64,000 nt of DNA from Leifsonia poae (lineage in GTDB: Bacteria; Actinomycetota; Actinomycetes; Actinomycetales; Microbacteriaceae). Position numbers and translations under genes: made by a program. A model generated the notes under the pieces. The model was given only the letters and a program-made list of their open reading frames with translations. It was not told the DNA's origin and ran no database searches. The DNA lies in the NCBI RefSeq assembly GCF_027921845.1, contig NZ_BSEN01000003.1:56375-120374 (forward strand). The letters run 5' to 3'. Below are positions 8,966 through 15,720 of this stretch, in pieces; the stretch's first letter is position 1, and every line of letters starts with the position of its first letter.

Positions 8966-9043
8966 GTCACGGTCTTCGTGTTCCGGCCTGCATCGCCAAC
9001 GTCCCCCGTAGTTCCGCCGGCCCCACCGCAGGAGTCTTCTCGC

Positions 9044-9682
9044 ATGGTCAAACAGGCGCGCGCTCGAGCGACGCGAGACGCCATCATCCGGGGCGCCGCC
9101 GAGGTCTTCGAGCGCAACGGATACGGCATCGCGTCGATCAGCGACATCGCGTCGGCCGCAGCCGTCACCAAGGGCGCCCTGTACTTCCACTTCCAATCGA
9201 AGGACGACCTGGCGCACGCCGTGATCGCGCGCCAGCACGAGCTCGCTTTCAGCGCGGGTGCTCTCGTGCTCGAGCAGGGCCGGCCCGCGCTCGAGTCGAT
9301 GGTGTTGCTGTGCGCGGGCCTCGGCCGCCAGCTCGTCACCGATCCGGTGGTGCAGGCGGGGATCCGGCTGACCACCGAGGTGTCGAATTTCGAACGCCCG
9401 GTCGCAGACCCCTATGAAGACTGGCTGAACACGTTCGAGGAGCTGGCGCGGCGCGCGATCGAGGAGGGCGACATCGCGCCGACCGTCGACCCGGCGATGC
9501 TCGCGCACTTCATCATCCCGGCGTACACCGGCATTCAGCTCGTGTCCGCGACGCTCGCCGATCGCACCGATCTCCTGCAGCGCATCCGGGAACTGTGGAT
9601 CGTGCTGCTGCCCGGAATCGTACCGGCCGATCGTCTCGACGCTCTGCGACGACTTCCCGAGCTGATCCCCACCTCGGCCTGA
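9044..9682 (+). CDS. ScbR/ArpA-family gamma-butyrolactone-receptor-like TetR regulator
   Basis: A 212-residue TetR-fold regulator of the autoregulator-receptor subgroup. The helix-turn-helix (ASISDIASAAAVTKGALYFHFQ, about 30-51) matches ArpA/ScbR proteins, and DPYEDWLNTFEELARRAIEEGDI places a Trp at residue 127, where receptors keep a ligand-contacting Trp. Such proteins repress targets until a gamma-butyrolactone or butenolide signal binds. No AfsA-type synthase is in the window, so it may sense a signal made elsewhere in the genome or by neighbours. The start ATG at 9044 follows AGGAG. A clear terminator hairpin follows, and a candidate operator lies 88 bp past the stop, before the DUF3566 gene. 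Confidence 0.88.
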   Translation: MVKQARARATRDAIIRGAAEVFERNGYGIASISDIASAAAVTKGALYFHFQSKDDLAHAVIARQHELAFSAGALVLEQGRPALESMVLLCAGLGRQLVTDPVVQAGIRLTTEVSNFERPVADPYEDWLNTFEELARRAIEEGDIAPTVDPAMLAHFIIPAYTGIQLVSATLADRTDLLQRIRELWIVLLPGIVPADRLDALRRLPELIPTSA

Positions 9683-9923: not shown

Positions 9924-10301
9924 ATGGCACGGACGCGCATCGACAAACGGGTGACGATGAGACTCGTCTACATCGATTTCTGGTCGAGCCTCAAGCTGTC
10001 GTTCCTCGTCTCGCTCTGCGTCGCCGCCGTCACGATCCTGGTCGCGCTGCTCGGCTGGAGCGTCCTCGACAAGACCGGCATCATCACCTCGGCGCGGGTG
10101 CTCTTCACCGACATCGGCGGAGACCGCGCCACGGACCTCTTCGCGGGCCTGACGTTTCAGGGTGTGCTGAGCTTCACCCTCGTCGTCGCACTGCTGGAGC
10201 TCATCGTCGTCACAGCCCTGGGGGCGGTGTTCGCCGCGCTGTTCAACCTCGCCTCGCGGGTGACGGGCGGCGCCAGAGTGAAGTTCGCCAACAAGGACTG
10301 A
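9924..10301 (+). CDS. DUF3566 membrane protein
   Basis: A 125-residue protein with two transmembrane helices (about 20-44 and 79-107). It begins with a short cytoplasmic segment, then YIDFWSSLKLSFLVSLCVAAV, the signature of DUF3566, an actinobacterial family usually found next to gyrA. Here it stands apart from gyrase genes, downstream of a receptor-type regulator and a candidate operator. Start ATG 9924 follows GGGGAGGAACG. Function unknown; DUF3566 proteins have been linked to the Tad/secretion-unrelated cell envelope only by location, so nothing is assigned. Confidence 0.82.
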   Translation: MARTRIDKRVTMRLVYIDFWSSLKLSFLVSLCVAAVTILVALLGWSVLDKTGIITSARVLFTDIGGDRATDLFAGLTFQGVLSFTLVVALLELIVVTALGAVFAALFNLASRVTGGARVKFANKD

Positions 10302-10312
10302 ACCACGACCCG

Positions 10313-10954
10313 TCAACGCGTGACGCGGTGGCGTTCGAGCCCTTCGACGAGCAGTGTCACGCCGAAGGTGAACGACTCCGCCTGCTCGCCGCCGGCATCC
10401 AGAGCATCGGGCACCGCGCCGTCGGGTAGCACGCCCAGGCTGTCGTACTGCAACCGCTGCTGTTCGTGCGAGACGTGGCCGAGCACGAAATGCGCGAGCG
10501 CGGTCGCGGCGCGACGGCTCGTCTCGGCGTCGAAGCCACCGGACTCGATCGCCGCCGTCAACCGCTCGCCCGGGCCGGATGCGCCGAGTCCGAGGGCGAG
10601 TGTGCTCGAGACGACCTCGGCGCCGTCGCGATAGGCGAGGAGGCCGTCGCGCAGACTCTCCGCCTCGGAACGCGTACGAGCCGCCCAGTCCCGCTCGCCG
10701 GCCTGCGAGGCGACACGCGGGGCGTCACGCCGGGCGTCACGCGGGGCGACGATCCGGTCGGCGAGTTCGGCGAGAAGCGACTGCTTGTTCGGGAAGTGCC
10801 AGTAGAGCGCGCTCGGCTGCACGTCGAGCGCGGCCGCCAGCCGGCGCATCGTCAGGTCGGGGAGCCCGTACTCATCGAGGATGCGCAGGGCCGTCTCGGC
10901 CACATCGTCGCGGGAGTGCCGCCCGCTTCTGCCTGCGCTTTCGTTCGCTGCCAC
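10313..10954 (-). CDS. bioQ: TetR-family repressor of the biotin operon (BioQ-like)
   Basis: A 213-residue TetR-fold protein with N-terminal helix-turn-helix (DLTMRRLAAALDVQPSALYWHFPNKQSLL, about 34-62) and a TetR-type C-terminal ligand domain. It is divergent from bioY, and the shared region holds three copies of TGAAC-N3-GTTCA, the operator known for corynebacterial BioQ. The assignment rests on operator plus location; sequence identity to BioQ was not measured. The GTG at 10954 lies 6 nt after a TATAGT box that abuts the first operator, so it is probably leaderless and autoregulated. It converges on the DUF3566 gene with 11 bp between stops. Confidence 0.85.
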   Translation of the reverse strand: MAANESAGRSGRHSRDDVAETALRILDEYGLPDLTMRRLAAALDVQPSALYWHFPNKQSLLAELADRIVAPRDARRDAPRVASQAGERDWAARTRSEAESLRDGLLAYRDGAEVVSSTLALGLGASGPGERLTAAIESGGFDAETSRRAATALAHFVLGHVSHEQQRLQYDSLGVLPDGAVPDALDAGGEQAESFTFGVTLLVEGLERHRVTR

Positions 10955-10967: not shown

Positions 10968-11010
10968 TGAACGCTGTTCAGGTGAACAGTGTTCAGGTGA
11001 ACAACGTTCA
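10968..11010. promoter_or_regulatory. Triple BioQ operator
   Basis: Three 13-bp palindromes TGAAC-N3-GTTCA at 10968-10980 (N3 = GCT), 10983-10995 (AGT) and 10998-11010 (AAC), spaced exactly 15 bp apart, in the bioQ-bioY intergenic region. The pattern equals the BioQ operator described in corynebacteria. The last copy ends 26 bp before the bioY start. Confidence 0.93.
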
Positions 11011-11036: not shown

Positions 11037-11726
11037 ATGAACAGCCGCTTCCGCATCGACGCCACCGACATCGCGCGCATCGCGGTGTTCGCCGCCATCG
11101 TCGCCGTCCTCGGCCTCGGCGGTGGGTTCACCGTGCTCGGCGCCGTGCCGATCACCGCTCAGACGCTCGGCGTGATGCTGGCCGGGGCCGTGCTCGGGCC
11201 GTGGCGCGGTGCCCTGTCGATGCTGGTCTTCCTCGCCCTGGTCGCACTCGGCCTCCCCCTGCTGTCCGGCGGCCGTGGCGGCATCGGCGTGTTCGCGGGG
11301 CCGTCGGCCGGCTACCTCGTGGGATGGGTGGTCGGCGCCTTCGTGATCGGTGCGATCGTCCACGCGCGCGGTCGTCGCCTCACCTGGGTGCGCACCAGCA
11401 TCGGCGTGCTCGTCGGGGGCATCCTCACCATCTACGTGTTCGGCATCCCCGTGCAGGCGTTCGTGACCCGCCTCCCCCTCGCGGAGACCGCGCTGCAGAG
11501 CACCGTCTTCCTGCCGGGCGATCTGATCAAGGCGGTCATCGCGGCCGCGATCACGATGACGCTCGCCCGGGCCTACCCGCGCGCCTTCCGCTCGGCCGCT
11601 GCCCGGACGGCGGCGCTGCCGGCGTCCGCGGCCCCGGCATCCGCGAACTCGGCATCCGCGAACTCGACGAGCGACTCCGTCGCCGACGCGCCCGATCACG
11701 CGGCGGACGGATCGCACACCCGGTGA
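11037..11726 (+). CDS. bioY: Biotin transporter S component BioY
   Basis: A 229-residue substrate-binding membrane protein of an energy-coupling-factor biotin importer. About six helices cover residues 13-180; GGFTVLGAVPITAQTLGVMLAG and LPLLSGGRGGIGVFAGPSAGYLVGW contain the conserved PITAQT and GGRGG motifs of BioY. The C-terminal 45 residues are a hydrophilic Ala/Ser-rich tail with a 15-bp internal duplication (GCATCCGCGAACTCG). ATG 11037 follows ACAGGAG. It is first in a five-gene operon; its stop overlaps the next start (GTGA at 11723). Confidence 0.97.
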   Translation: MNSRFRIDATDIARIAVFAAIVAVLGLGGGFTVLGAVPITAQTLGVMLAGAVLGPWRGALSMLVFLALVALGLPLLSGGRGGIGVFAGPSAGYLVGWVVGAFVIGAIVHARGRRLTWVRTSIGVLVGGILTIYVFGIPVQAFVTRLPLAETALQSTVFLPGDLIKAVIAAAITMTLARAYPRAFRSAAARTAALPASAAPASANSASANSTSDSVADAPDHAADGSHTR

Positions 11727-12934
11727 CGGCGCGCATCCGACCCGGCGAGATCGTCCCGCTGAGGGGCGACGCGGCGACGGTCATCGCACCGGCTCTCGCC
11801 GTGCACGACCAGGGCGGCATCCCGCTGATCGGCGACGTCCGCCGGCCCCGCGAGCAGTGGGCGCGCGTCGAGGAGCTGGCCGCCCGCGCCGGCGCTCGGC
11901 CGGGTCTGGGCTGGGCCGCACTCACCTCCGGCACGACAGGGACGCCGCGCATCGTCCTGCGCACCGCCGATTCGTGGGCATCGTCCTTCGCTGCGATCGA
12001 CGCGCTGCTCGGCCGTCGGCCGGATGACGTGCTCTTCCTCCCCGCACCGCCCGCGTCGTCGATGACGCTGTTCTCGATCGCGCATGCGCACGCCAAAGCG
12101 CTGGGCGTCGTGCTCGGAGGCGGAGGCGCGGTCACGCCGGGGCCTGCACGCGACGCGACGCTCTTCCACGGCACTCCGGGAGCGCTGCTGTCGATGATCG
12201 AAGCGATCGAGTCCGGGTCGCCCTCGCGCCTCCGTTCGGCCCTCGTCGGCGGAAGCGACCTCGCTGCGTCGACCCGCGAGCGTGCCGAGCGCCTCGGCAT
12301 CCGGGTCGTCGCGTACTACGGTGCCGCCGAGCTCTCCTTCGTCGCCGTCGACCAGGGCGACGGGCTCCGGCCGTTCCCCGGCGTCGAGGTGCAGGTACGC
12401 GATGACGTGCTCTGGGTGCGCTCGCCCTACGTCGCGGCCGGCTATCTCACCGACGGGCCGCAGACCGACGGCTCGGAGACCGACGGTCCGGTGACCGACG
12501 GACCCTTCCGCACCGACGATGACGGCTGGTGCACCGTCGGCGACCGCGCGGCGCTCGACGGCGACAGGATCACCCTGCGCGGACGCCGCGACGACGCCAT
12601 CCTCACGGCGTCGGCGACCGTGATCCCCGGGGAGGTGGAGGCGGCCATCCGCTCTCTCCCGTGGGTCGGCGACGCTGTGGTGTTCGGGATGCCGAACGCG
12701 ACGATCGGATCGCTGGTCGCCGCGGTCGTCGAGCCCGCCGCCGGTCGCGCGGTCCCCGCCCTGAGCACGGTGCGTGCACAGGCCGACGCGGTGCTCAGTC
12801 ACACGCACCGGCCGCGCCGCTGGTTCGGGATGAGCGAACTCCCGCGCACCGCGTCGGGGAAGCCCGCCAGGGCGGCGATCGTCGCCCGGGTGCTGGCGGG
12901 GGAGGTGACGCCCCTTGGCGAGCTCGACCGCTGA
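11723..12934 (+). CDS. AMP-forming acyl-CoA synthetase in the biotin operon (YhfT-like)
   Basis: A compact (403-residue) member of the adenylate-forming ANL family, which activates a carboxylate as acyl-AMP and then acyl-CoA. TSGTTGTPRIV is the P-loop (A3), YYGAAELSFV is A5, and GDRAALDGDRITLRGRRDDAI contains the A7/A8 hinge. PRTASGKPAR near the C-terminus holds the catalytic Lys. The N-terminal domain is short compared with typical 500-residue fatty acyl-CoA ligases. It starts at GTG 11723, overlapping the bioY stop, and the next gene starts 20 bp inside it. Acylation of pimelate or a longer fatty acid for biotin synthesis is the proposed role for the related yhfT; it is inference here. Confidence 0.9.
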   Translation: MTARIRPGEIVPLRGDAATVIAPALAVHDQGGIPLIGDVRRPREQWARVEELAARAGARPGLGWAALTSGTTGTPRIVLRTADSWASSFAAIDALLGRRPDDVLFLPAPPASSMTLFSIAHAHAKALGVVLGGGGAVTPGPARDATLFHGTPGALLSMIEAIESGSPSRLRSALVGGSDLAASTRERAERLGIRVVAYYGAAELSFVAVDQGDGLRPFPGVEVQVRDDVLWVRSPYVAAGYLTDGPQTDGSETDGPVTDGPFRTDDDGWCTVGDRAALDGDRITLRGRRDDAILTASATVIPGEVEAAIRSLPWVGDAVVFGMPNATIGSLVAAVVEPAAGRAVPALSTVRAQADAVLSHTHRPRRWFGMSELPRTASGKPARAAIVARVLAGEVTPLGELDR

Positions 12935-14099
12935 TCCCGTGATCGTCGCCGCGCGCCGCACGCCGATCGGCACGCGTGGACGAAGCCTGCGCTCCGTCAC
13001 GGTGGAACAGCTGGCGGCGCCCGTCATCCGGGCCCTCGTCGACGACGGCGCCGACGCGCTCGGCGGGCGCCGGCCGGTCGCCGATGTCGTACTCGGCAAC
13101 TGCATGGGTCCCGGAGGCAATCCCGCGCGGGTCGCCGCGCTCGCGGCGGGGCTCGGCTCGGGCGTGCCAGGGATGACCGTCGACCGTCAATGCGGCAGCG
13201 GCCTGGCCGCCATCGTGGAGGCCGCGACCGCGGTCCGGGCCGGCGACGAGCGGATGCGCGTCGCAGGCGGTGTCGAGAGCGCCTCGACGGCCCCCGTGCG
13301 CTCCATCGACGGCGTCGCCTACGAGCGCGCTCCGTTCGCGCCGCAGGGAACGCCGGATCCCGACATGACGCTGGCCGCCGACGACCTCGCCCGGGCGTTC
13401 GGGCTGAGCCGCGAGCGTCAGGACGCCTACACCGCACGTAGCCACCGCCGCGCGCGGGTGGCGGTGGACCGCGGCGCCTTCGACGAGGAGCTCGTTCCGC
13501 TCGCGGCACTCGCCGTCGACGATGCGATCACGGCCGTCGGCGCCAACCCGGCCGACGGCGCGAACGACACGGCGAGCATCGCCGTCGAACGCCTGCTCCC
13601 CCGCTTCCCTCCGCTGTTCGACGGCGGCAGCGTGACGGCCGGCAATTCCTGCCGCGTCAACGACGGGGCAGCCGCGGCGCTCATCGTTCCCGGGCGCGTC
13701 CGTGGGGACGCGCCCGGCCTCGCCCTGCGAGCCCACGCGACGGTCGGCTGCGACCCCGCCCTCCCCGGGCTCGGAGCCGCGCCCGCGATCGCCGCCGCAC
13801 TCGATCGCTCGGGCCACCGGCTCGCCGACGTCGCCGCGTTCGAGATCGTCGAGGCGTTCGCCGCCCAACTGCTCGCCGTGCTGACCGAGCTCGGCCTCCC
13901 CGATACGGATGCCCGGGTCTGCGCCGACGGCGGAGCGCTCGCACTCGGGCATCCGTGGGGCGCGAGCGGTGCGGTCAGTGTCGTCAGACTCTTCTCGCGG
14001 CTGGTGCGCGCCGGCGCCCCTGCCGGCACGGTGGGCGTCGCCGCCGCGTCGATCGGCGGCGGGATGGGCGTCGCCGCGGTGTTCGAGGTGGTGCGATGA
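12915..14099 (+). CDS. Thiolase-family protein with altered active site (YhfS-like)
   Basis: A 394-residue thiolase-fold protein. VDRQCGSGLAAI holds the nucleophilic Cys93, and GHPWGASGAVSVVRLFSRL the catalytic His. The two other signature blocks are changed: NEAFA is VEAFA (IVEAFAAQ), and the C-terminal CxGGGMG is SIGGGMG, so the acid/base Cys is Ser. It could therefore be a slow thiolase or have another acyl-transfer role. The TTG at 12915 lies 7 nt after GGAGGTG, so translation starts within the ligase gene; a GTG eight codons later is the alternative. It overlaps bioM by 4 bp. Confidence 0.9.
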   Translation: MASSTADPVIVAARRTPIGTRGRSLRSVTVEQLAAPVIRALVDDGADALGGRRPVADVVLGNCMGPGGNPARVAALAAGLGSGVPGMTVDRQCGSGLAAIVEAATAVRAGDERMRVAGGVESASTAPVRSIDGVAYERAPFAPQGTPDPDMTLAADDLARAFGLSRERQDAYTARSHRRARVAVDRGAFDEELVPLAALAVDDAITAVGANPADGANDTASIAVERLLPRFPPLFDGGSVTAGNSCRVNDGAAAALIVPGRVRGDAPGLALRAHATVGCDPALPGLGAAPAIAAALDRSGHRLADVAAFEIVEAFAAQLLAVLTELGLPDTDARVCADGGALALGHPWGASGAVSVVRLFSRLVRAGAPAGTVGVAAASIGGGMGVAAVFEVVR

Positions 14100-14782
14100 C
14101 CGCCATCGAGCTGCGCGACGTGACCGTACGACTGGGCGACCGGGTCGCCCTCGACCGGGTGAGCCTCAGCCTCGATCACCGGCGGATCGCCGTGATCGGC
14201 GCCAACGGATCGGGCAAGTCGACCTTCGCCCGCCTCCTCGGCGGGCTGGTCACCGCGGAGTCCGGATCGGCCTCGGTGCTGGGGATCGATCCCGCGCACC
14301 GGTCGACGGAGCTCCGCCGCCGGGTCGGCTTCGTCTTCAGCAACCCCGACGCCCAGATCATCATGCCGACGGTCGCCGAGGACGTGGCGTTCTCGCTCCG
14401 GGGCGAACGCCTGCCCAAGGCGGAATCCGTCGCCCGGGTCGCCGCAGCCTTGGAGCGATTCGGGCTCGGAGCACTGGCCGACCAGGCCGCGCACGACCTC
14501 TCCGGCGGCCAGAAGCAACTGCTCGCGCTGTGCGCCGCCCTCATCCGGGAGCCGTCGCTGGTCATCGCCGACGAGCCGACCGCCTATCTCGACGCGCGCA
14601 ACAGCCGCCAGATCGCCGATCACTTGCTGTCGGATGCGGGCCACGACCTCGTGCTCGTCACGCACGACCTCCGGATGGCCGGGCGCTGCGACGTCGCCGT
14701 GCTCTTCGACGCGGGCAGGGTGGTGGCCTCCGGGCAGCCGGATGCGGTGATCGAACGCTACGAGGCACTGCTGTCATGCTGA
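14096..14782 (+). CDS. bioM: Biotin ECF transporter ATPase BioM
   Basis: A 228-residue ABC ATPase of the CbiO/EcfA type. GANGSGKST (residues 36-44) is Walker A, SNPDAQIIMPTVAEDVAFS the Q-loop typical of ECF ATPases, LSGGQKQLLALCAAL the signature and LVIADEPTAYLD Walker B, followed by the switch His in LVTHD. BioM energises biotin uptake with BioY and BioN at the inner face of the membrane. It overlaps the thiolase (ATGA) and bioN by a few bases. Confidence 0.95.
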   Translation: MTAIELRDVTVRLGDRVALDRVSLSLDHRRIAVIGANGSGKSTFARLLGGLVTAESGSASVLGIDPAHRSTELRRRVGFVFSNPDAQIIMPTVAEDVAFSLRGERLPKAESVARVAAALERFGLGALADQAAHDLSGGQKQLLALCAALIREPSLVIADEPTAYLDARNSRQIADHLLSDAGHDLVLVTHDLRMAGRCDVAVLFDAGRVVASGQPDAVIERYEALLSC

Positions 14783-15372
14783 CCCTCTACCGCCCGGGAA
14801 CCGGCTGGCTGCATCGCGCACCCGCCGGTCCGAAGGCAGCCGTGCTGCTCGTGCTGGTGGTCGCGGTGACGCTGCTCCCGTCGACCCTGGCCGCGGCCTC
14901 CGTCGCCGCGCTGGTCACGACGGCGAGCTACCTGATCGGGGGGCTCGGCTGGCGCGTGCTCGGCCGGCAGGTGGTCTCCGTGCGCTGGGTGATCGTGATC
15001 ACGCTCGGCGCTCAGCTCGTCTTCCTGACGCCGGAGGTGGCCGTGGCGAACAGCACGCGCGTGCTCGCCGCCATCCTGATCGCGGGCCTGCTGGTGCTGA
15101 CGACCCGGGTCGCCGACCTGCTCGACGCCGTCGAACGCGGGCTGCGGCCGTTCGAGCGCATCGGGGTCGACGCCGAACGGGTCGCGCTGGTGCTCGCCGT
15201 CTCGATCACGACGATCCCCGTGCTGGTGCGGCTCGCCGCCGGCGTGCGGGAGGCGCAGAAGGCGCGAGGCGTGCGCGTCGGTGTCGCCGGCTTCGTGATC
15301 CCGTTCCTGGTCGTCTCCCTCAAGCACGCCGACGAGCTGGGCGAAGCCCTGACCGCTCGCGGCGTGCGCTGA
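14776..15372 (+). CDS. bioN: Biotin ECF transporter transmembrane protein BioN
   Basis: A 198-residue EcfT-type membrane coupling protein with helices at about 20-40, 43-60, 67-80, 92-110 and a C-terminal segment. The two coupling motifs that contact the ATPases are visible as AQKARGVR (about 158-165) and ALTARGVR at the C-terminus. It starts 7 bp before the bioM stop. Its last 14 bp including the stop are duplicated directly downstream. Confidence 0.93.
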   Translation: MLTLYRPGTGWLHRAPAGPKAAVLLVLVVAVTLLPSTLAAASVAALVTTASYLIGGLGWRVLGRQVVSVRWVIVITLGAQLVFLTPEVAVANSTRVLAAILIAGLLVLTTRVADLLDAVERGLRPFERIGVDAERVALVLAVSITTIPVLVRLAAGVREAQKARGVRVGVAGFVIPFLVVSLKHADELGEALTARGVR

Positions 15373-15388: not shown

Positions 15389-15405
15389 GGGATACGGTGA
15401 ACGGG

Positions 15406-15720
15406 ATGCTCATCCACGGCCCCACGATCGACGACCAGACCCGCTGCGTGCACTACGGCGGGCCGCTCGACGTCATCGCGATCAAGTTCCGCTGCTGCGG
15501 CGACTACTACCCGTGCCACCTCTGCCACGCCGAGACGGCAGGGCATCCGGCCGAGCAGTGGCACCTCGACGAACGCGGCGAGCGGGCCGTGATCTGCGGC
15601 GTGTGCGACACCGAACTGACCATCGACGAGTACCTCGCCGTCGACGCCTGCCCGGCATGCGCCGCCGACTTCAACCCCGGCTGCCGGCTGCACACGCACC
15701 TCTACTTCGAGACCGCCTGA
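15406..15720 (+). CDS. CHY-type zinc finger protein
   Basis: A 104-residue protein of the CHY zinc-finger family (PF05495, Hot13-like). RCVHYGGPLDVIAIKFRCCGDYYPCHLCH carries the first Cys/His cluster, ICGVCDTEL the second and ACPACAADFNPGC the third; together they can bind several zinc ions. The biochemical role in bacteria is unknown. ATG 15406 lies 7 nt after a TACGGT box, which suits leaderless initiation; a GTG at 15397 is the alternative start. It is 33 bp after bioN but seems to have its own promoter. Confidence 0.9.
   Translation: MLIHGPTIDDQTRCVHYGGPLDVIAIKFRCCGDYYPCHLCHAETAGHPAEQWHLDERGERAVICGVCDTELTIDEYLAVDACPACAADFNPGCRLHTHLYFETA

Follow-up and report, generated by a model that had tools for sequence, protein, structure and literature searches.

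The biotin uptake operon of Leifsonia poae, bioY-LIG-THI-bioM-bioN, carries between its bioY and bioM genes a pair of genes that encode an AMP-forming acid ligase (LIG) and a thiolase-fold enzyme (THI). It lies in the 64,000 nucleotide stretch analysed here (contig NZ_BSEN01000003.1, positions 56,375 to 120,374; "the window" below). The LIG-THI pair goes with biotin uptake and not with biotin synthesis. In an even set of 198 genomes of the same order, bioY is present in all 36 genomes that have THI (profile scores of at least 339 bits, versus 327 bits or less for paralogues) and THI is found in none of the 23 genomes that have no bioY (p = 0.007, ignoring shared ancestry), while 32 of the 36 THI genomes are without BioB. 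We consider it quite possible, though short of probable, that the pair forms a salvage module which is linked to biotin uptake, is turned on at biotin scarcity and would most likely have shortened biotin as its substrate.

The L. poae genome itself has no BioB, its best match scoring 31 bits against a family cut-off of 225. BioB occurs in 23 of the 198 order genomes, 4 of the 36 with THI and 19 of the 162 without it, and carriage of THI is independent of BioB (odds ratio 0.94, p = 1). Among LIG-bearing named isolates, of unstated genome completeness, BioB is present in 12 of 50 and missing in 38; these were drawn from 80 named loci found by way of the ligase (the best 80 of 125), after exclusion of 17 loci from metagenome-assembled genomes, 5 genome repeats and 8 isolates (5 Agromyces and one each of Phytoactinopolyspora, Promicromonospora and Rhodococcus). 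By the established pathway neither a pimeloyl thioester nor a later precursor can become biotin without BioB, and in most carriers, therefore, no such precursor could do so. An earlier annotation made from the letters alone (the sequence-only reading) had suggested supply of a pimeloyl-type precursor. Synthesis or salvage of such a precursor could apply to the minority of carriers with BioB, and in Streptantibioticus cattleyicolor the pair is near bioB and bioD genes (named by eye), but the remaining carriers have no BioB and carriage ignores it; we reject it as a general role and regard it as very improbable. The other suggestion of that reading, that biotin intermediates are remodelled, agrees better with the data if the compound remodelled is an imported acid, since all 36 THI genomes of the order set have bioY, and the question shifts from supply of a precursor to handling of an imported compound. 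LIG as a replacement biotin protein ligase was also considered and rejected, because a biotin protein ligase scores above cut-off in 36 of 36 carriers searched. Among 181 rhizobial genomes, biotin transport genes are reported in 98 (54%), synthesis genes in 38 and both in 45 (PMC8914248).

The operon and its operators

The transcription unit begins at bioY (positions 11037..11726), which encodes the substrate-binding component of the energy-coupling factor (ECF) biotin transporter (PF02632, 128 bits; 89.5 bits to the BioY of 4dve), and continues on the same, forward strand with LIG (11723..12934; 403 amino acids, Pfam AMP-binding and AMP-binding_C, PF00501 and PF13193), THI (12915..14099; Pfam Thiolase_N and Thiolase_C, without the C-terminal catalytic Cys), the ECF ATPase gene bioM (14096..14782; ABC_tran, and ECF_ATPase_1 at 178 bits, below that model's cut-off of 315) and the ECF T component gene bioN (14776..15372; CbiQ, 49.9 bits). 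All five exceed the Pfam cut-offs, and bioY, bioM and bioN are all present in the operon by the Pfam and ECF models and the 4dve match. Successive frames overlap by 4 (bioY/LIG), 20 (LIG/THI), 4 (THI/bioM) and 7 (bioM/bioN) bases, and THI starts with TTG with GGGGGAGGTG upstream.

Divergent from the operon is a TetR gene (10313..10954, reverse strand; TetR_N and TetR_C_1 matches) whose closest PDB sequences are 5yek/5yej/5xs9 (116 bits), which we take to be Mycobacterium smegmatis BioQ. Between it and bioY are three exact, tandem copies of TGAAC-N3-GTTCA (10968..11010) that start at 10968, 10983 and 10998, a spacing of 15 bases; this motif is the predicted BioQ site (PMC3398298). Only 0.03 such sites are expected in the window, three were reached in 0 of 100 shuffles, and an exact match occurs five times in the whole genome (4.07 Mb, completeness 100), the three at the operon included, whereas the reversed control motif does not occur. 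The TetR gene product is BioQ-like and, by sequence, a candidate repressor for the three operators. The overlapping run behind three BioQ-type operators was correctly recognised in the sequence-only reading, whose coordinates began at LIG and are here moved upstream to bioY at 11037, with the divergent regulator gene to 10954. By eye, the two exact sites elsewhere in the genome have membrane or ABC-transport-like neighbours with no evident biotin link.

After bioN lies a gene for a small Cys-rich protein of 107 amino acids, zinc-finger-like by eye (15397-15720, forward strand); a cluster of genes with similar products is present in 6 of the 80 named loci and lies downstream of LIG in five of these. 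Upstream of the BioQ-like gene are a second TetR gene (8978-9682) and a small membrane-protein gene (9924-10301), both on the forward strand and, by eye, in the same place in five Leifsonia loci.

Distribution, regulator sites and accessory genes

bioY is present in 175 of the 198 order genomes. Sixty bioY regions from this sample include the ligase in 13, ten of which have the full order bioY-LIG-THI-bioM-bioN; two show no THI in the stretch, and in one a convergent THI-LIG pair stands on the far side of bioN. In 30 of the 36 THI genomes THI and bioY are at most about 4 kb apart. In the other six, bioY-LIG and THI-bioM-bioN are about 10 kb apart (G060), the full gene order is held (G075), the contig stops at LIG (G014), THI and bioY are 34 kb apart (G005) or they are far apart (G146, G118). 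The named loci come from genera that include Microbacterium, Leifsonia, Agromyces, Promicromonospora, Isoptericola, Brachybacterium, Kribbella, Micromonospora, Nakamurella, Rhodococcus and Amycolatopsis, and the trio of bioY, ligase and thiolase is conserved across actinobacteria; its absence from related genomes, which would have counted against the sequence-only reading, is not what was found. We note that in Leifsonia sp. Root4 a 636-amino acid gene, glycoside-hydrolase-like by eye, splits bioM from bioN (L121:11912-13822), that about 7-10 kb is inserted between bioY-LIG and THI-bioM in Nakamurella lactea (L134:9993-16958) and in G060 (L181:5251-15009), and that two Rhodococcus loci have a second, more distant ligase homologue (35-36%) after bioN (L141:12729-13676, L144:12751-13698).

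A BioQ-type site with at most one mismatch stands ahead of bioY in 18 of the 19 named loci in which both a BioQ-like gene and bioY were detected, and named loci without a BioQ-like gene mostly have no BioQ-type site before bioY. In five named loci (L067, L070, L074, L079, L083) the stretch contains LIG-THI but neither bioY nor bioN. Upstream of LIG, L070 has two BioQ-type sites at a distance of 15 bases, one of which carries a single mismatch, L074 has one exact site and one with a single mismatch, and L079 has one exact site; no site with two mismatches or fewer stands directly before LIG in L067 or L083, and none with one mismatch or fewer occurs in the G118 and G146 stretches. All five separate-pair genomes have bioY elsewhere with exact sites near it, in the L070 genome about 10 kb further along the same contig; as background, the 80 named loci contain 46 exact sites in 1.40 Mb, and many of these sites belong to bioY promoters. 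That the pair merely hitch-hikes inside a bioYMN transcript is unlikely, because BioQ-type sites also stand before three pairs located away from bioYMN, although L067, L083, G118 and G146 count against this rejection. The L070 genome (G248) has seven exact BioQ-type sites and zero of the reversed control; four are on contigs away from bioY and LIG-THI, and the two of these inspected (L161, L168) have no evident biotin gene nearby.

An alternative operator was sought in the loci without BioQ as gapped palindromes over 47 upstream regions; nothing was widely shared, and the best palindrome, in four loci, was the BioQ motif again. Exact copies of TTATNNATAA, presumably the BioR box motif, were not found in the six plasmid loci scanned. 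The Paracoccus denitrificans plasmid bioMNY2 is described as having no BioR site (PMC4554459). In Staphylococcus aureus BirA, together with biotin, represses the promoter of yhfS-yhfT (PMC6391492), so the same kind of pair is found under an unrelated biotin regulator, a point the sequence-only reading had already made for Bacillus subtilis, and regulators that are not related, BioQ-type and BirA, have come to control such pairs.

Residue Arg80 of the window BioY (11274-11276) aligns to the N of TGGNGG in 4dve, which we take to be a biotin contact. Among 147 BioY proteins of the order, Arg80 is present in 35 of 36 carriers versus 13 of 111 others (with the ligase-only G112 included as a carrier and G014 excluded). 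On the tree, two of three contrasts are for an association and none against, and in another set 3-4 of seven are for and none against; these tests scored G118, G146 and G005 as carriers though their pair lies elsewhere, and the tree count drops two of the 111 that are gapped at the position. The tree test is non-significant, and co-adaptation of Arg80 with the pair was rejected. Seven further bioY loci (L281-L287), which have no pair in the stretch, also have Arg80 in 7 of 7; five are pair-less with both flanks, while L281 and L284 end at the record edge. By alignment, Arg80 looks like a mark of a BioY subfamily.

Beyond the order, plasmid protein searches and 20 region look-ups (one repeating a locus) found the pair adjoining bioMNY in the alphaproteobacteria Azospirillum, Pseudosulfitobacter, Thioclava, Paracoccus sp. 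SMMA_5, Alloyangia, Salipiger, Marivivens, Sinorhizobium meliloti pSymB and Shinella, and beside bioMNY in the actinobacteria S. cattleyicolor and Nonomuraea. A nitroreductase-family gene (PF00881) is in the cluster in 6 of 12 loci, all Rhodobacterales (6 of 6 Rhodobacterales carriers examined), and in 0 of 4 pair-less Rhodobacterales loci with both flanks (p = 0.005, among related genomes). A 4HBT thioesterase and an MDR oxidoreductase accompany the pair in S. cattleyicolor (L272), Rhizobium (L275), S. meliloti (L280) and Shinella (L288); the best PDB match of the latter enzyme is 3gms, a putative quinone reductase (174 bits), followed by mitochondrial enoyl-thioester reductases (about 106 bits). 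The thioesterase suits release of a free acid, and less so delivery of pimeloyl-CoA or an acyl-CoA. In the 80 named loci no additional gene recurs across genera. In S. cattleyicolor the bioB and bioD genes (L272:75-2081) adjoin the MDR, thioesterase, bioMNY and LIG-THI genes.

Side-chain degradation employs a ligase, an oxidoreductase and a thiolase, and flavin or MDR reductases are present in some relatives, so the pair might instead shorten biotin, or detoxify a biotin-like antimetabolite imported by BioY such as the Streptomyces product alpha-dehydrobiotin. Corynebacterium glutamicum bioYMN and S. aureus yhfS-yhfT are, however, up at low biotin, the wrong time to degrade it (PMC3398298, PMC6391492), and we regard breakdown as improbable.

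The two enzymes and a proposed role

LIG is an ANL acid ligase by its AMP-binding domains and motif residues. In 101 aligned ligases (including L056, a weak match without the family motif that is not counted as a carrier) the A10 Lys is kept in 99 and the A7 Asp in 101, and the A5 position, usually Thr in such enzymes, is Ala, Val or Ser in all 101. The protein scores 79 bits with NF005797 (PRK07638), below the curated cut-off of 518. Its top fold matches are ring-acid ligases such as MenE, in a continuous list that includes acyl-ACP synthetases.

Acetyl-CoA carboxylase is biotin-dependent, and a biotin-sparing lipid bypass could be imagined in which, that enzyme failing, free fatty acids are activated by LIG and then elongated or transferred by THI. 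In its favour, the regulators are biotin-responsive, the pair has generic similarity to acyl-CoA ligases and thiolases, and according to a review Bacillus subtilis YhfT makes the adenylates of 3-hydroxy fatty acids but not their CoA esters (PMC10988940). Such a bypass predicts carriers without bioY, yet there are none among the 23 bioY-less genomes; the ring-acid ligases at the top of the fold list speak against it, though acyl-ACP synthetases follow, and a thioesterase next to the pair would undo the acyl-CoA supply. We hold the bypass to be distinctly unlikely.

THI belongs to the thiolase family by PF00108, PF02803 and TIGR01930 (290 bits against a cut-off of 240.55), and its fold agrees. 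By alignment Cys93 (codon 13191..13193) is the equivalent of the nucleophile C89 (the numbering is, we assume, that of Zoogloea ramigera thiolase), and the canonical active-site positions N316 and C378 read Val312 (13848..13850) and Ser379 (14049..14051), all on the forward strand, which bears out its description as an atypical thiolase in the sequence-only reading. C89 and H348, the His of GHP, are kept in 93 of 93 actinobacterial family members and in the 12 further relatives aligned; the C-terminal catalytic Cys is missing in all 105 THI sequences examined, and N316 is kept in the S. meliloti, Shinella, Rhizobium, S. cattleyicolor and Azospirillum loci. The 93-sequence alignment excludes seven duplicates (including the G060 THI), L. 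poae's own paralogues and the truncated proteins L088, L093, L128, L133 and L140; L154 and L155 are pieces of one paralogue, and L152, off by one column there, is aligned in another alignment. Residues 121-150 are shorter than in the PDB thiolases aligned and are a region of low model confidence. With NF005212 (PRK06690) THI scores 298 bits, below the curated cut-off of 498, and this model ranks it top among its own genome's thiolases (298 versus 215 bits).

The company of BioY, the regulator sites, the mostly BioB-less hosts and the reductase and thioesterase of some relatives together point to a toolkit that activates an acid, alters its chain and frees it. What is imported is presumably biotin-like, and the simplest proposal is then that the pair repairs a side chain which beta-oxidation has shortened; the most likely substrate would be a biotin catabolite of the bisnorbiotin type, rebuilt to biotin. 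The acid would enter by way of BioY and be adenylated by LIG, then passed as a thioester to CoA, to a carrier protein or directly to Cys93 of THI; THI would carry the acyl group on Cys93 and extend or transfer it, and reduction and release would give a free acid usable by the ordinary biotin protein ligase. In ketosynthases a Cys with His and Asn suffices when the donor is malonyl, and the missing base of THI might be bypassed by such a pre-activated donor, or THI might only transfer acyl groups. The fullest version, in which BioY imports shortened biotin, LIG activates it, a ketosynthase-like THI re-extends it and the product is completed and set free by a thioesterase and by reductases that differ between lineages (MDR or nitroreductase type), is possible but doubtful. 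We infer from the gene context that biotin regulates the operon, and likewise infer the substrate, the direction of the chemistry and any carbon-carbon bond formation retained by THI.

Several observations weigh against this salvage proposal. C378, the canonical Claisen base, is present in 0 of the 93 actinobacterial family members, 85 of which lack N316 as well, and all 12 further relatives (10 from alphaproteobacteria, 2 from actinobacteria) have Gly or Ala in place of C378; this makes ordinary reversible thiolase chemistry doubtful. A scan of the first 40 kb of the window detected none of the accessory genes near LIG, nor, S. cattleyicolor excepted, were any detected near LIG in the other actinobacterial loci scanned (E up to 1e-7), and so host enzymes would be needed for those steps in L. 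poae. The missing Claisen base and these missing accessory genes are the weak points of the proposal. Thioesterase, MDR and nitroreductase genes are also lacking in the Azospirillum (L269) and Nonomuraea (L273) loci, and among the 80 named loci neither a keto-reductase nor a dehydratase gene recurs from one genus to another. The carrier G112 has LIG without a family THI, and a Rhizobium pair (L275) has no bioY within 5 kb and may serve another acid. The activity reported for YhfT favours fatty acids (PMC10988940), and no study in which such a pair was tried on biotin vitamers turned up in our literature search.

The loss of C378 beside a fully kept C89 and H348 would also suit trapping of biotin for retention, in which LIG makes biotinyl-AMP or a biotin thioester and THI, its Claisen chemistry lost, transfers or holds biotin. 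YhfT is reported to halt at the adenylate (PMC10988940) and the pair sits within a transporter operon, both as trapping would have it, but the normal biotin protein ligase of all carriers searched already traps biotin, and the reductase and thioesterase partners of some relatives have no place in a trap; we judge trapping rather unlikely.

The salvage proposal predicts that biotin auxotrophs use biotin catabolites, and fuller gene sets such as that of S. meliloti pSymB offer loci for testing this. If it is true, degraded biotin could sustain many of the bacteria that are classed as strict biotin auxotrophs, and models of vitamin exchange in soil, sea and plant communities would change. The literature searched, as titles and abstract openings and mostly outside subscription journals, gave neither a biotin-linked function for the pair nor bacterial salvage of bisnorbiotin; a biotin-vitamer salvage pathway of actinobacteria, alphaproteobacteria and perhaps Firmicutes, if it exists, would thus be one that the papers searched do not describe.

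Comparison with known systems

Rodionov and colleagues were reportedly, in 2002, the first to list yhfS-yhfT in the BirA regulon. The BirA-controlled yhfS-yhfT of Firmicutes is already published, and its function is unsettled. In S. aureus and B. subtilis its members, the thiolase-like yhfS and the ligase-like yhfT, are likewise under a biotin-responsive repressor with bioY (PMC6391492, PMC11089781), and the window pair has a YhfS/YhfT-like arrangement, with a ligase and a thiolase behind predicted biotin-regulator sites and beside bioY. The window differs in that it has BioQ-type operators and not BirA sites, and in that its pair sits between bioY and bioMN. LIG and THI fall below the cut-offs of NF005797 and NF005212, which at a guess are the YhfT and YhfS families, respectively, and the likeness is one of gene content and not of Firmicutes sequences.

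Relative to Z. ramigera thiolase and Thermus thermophilus 1ulq, the THI family has C378 and mostly N316 replaced and residues 121-150 shorter. LIG differs from MenE (o-succinylbenzoate-CoA ligase) in a score far below that model's cut-off of 345, in the replaced A5 Thr and in its biotin context. A parallel in gene content of the transporter is C. glutamicum bioYMN, which is a single transcript induced by biotin limitation and occurs in an organism that retains ring assembly from pimeloyl-CoA (PMC3398298), whereas L. poae is without BioB. The window shares bioY, bioM, bioN and the predicted operator motif with bioYMN, and differs from it by three tandem operators and by the two enzyme genes inserted between bioY and bioM.

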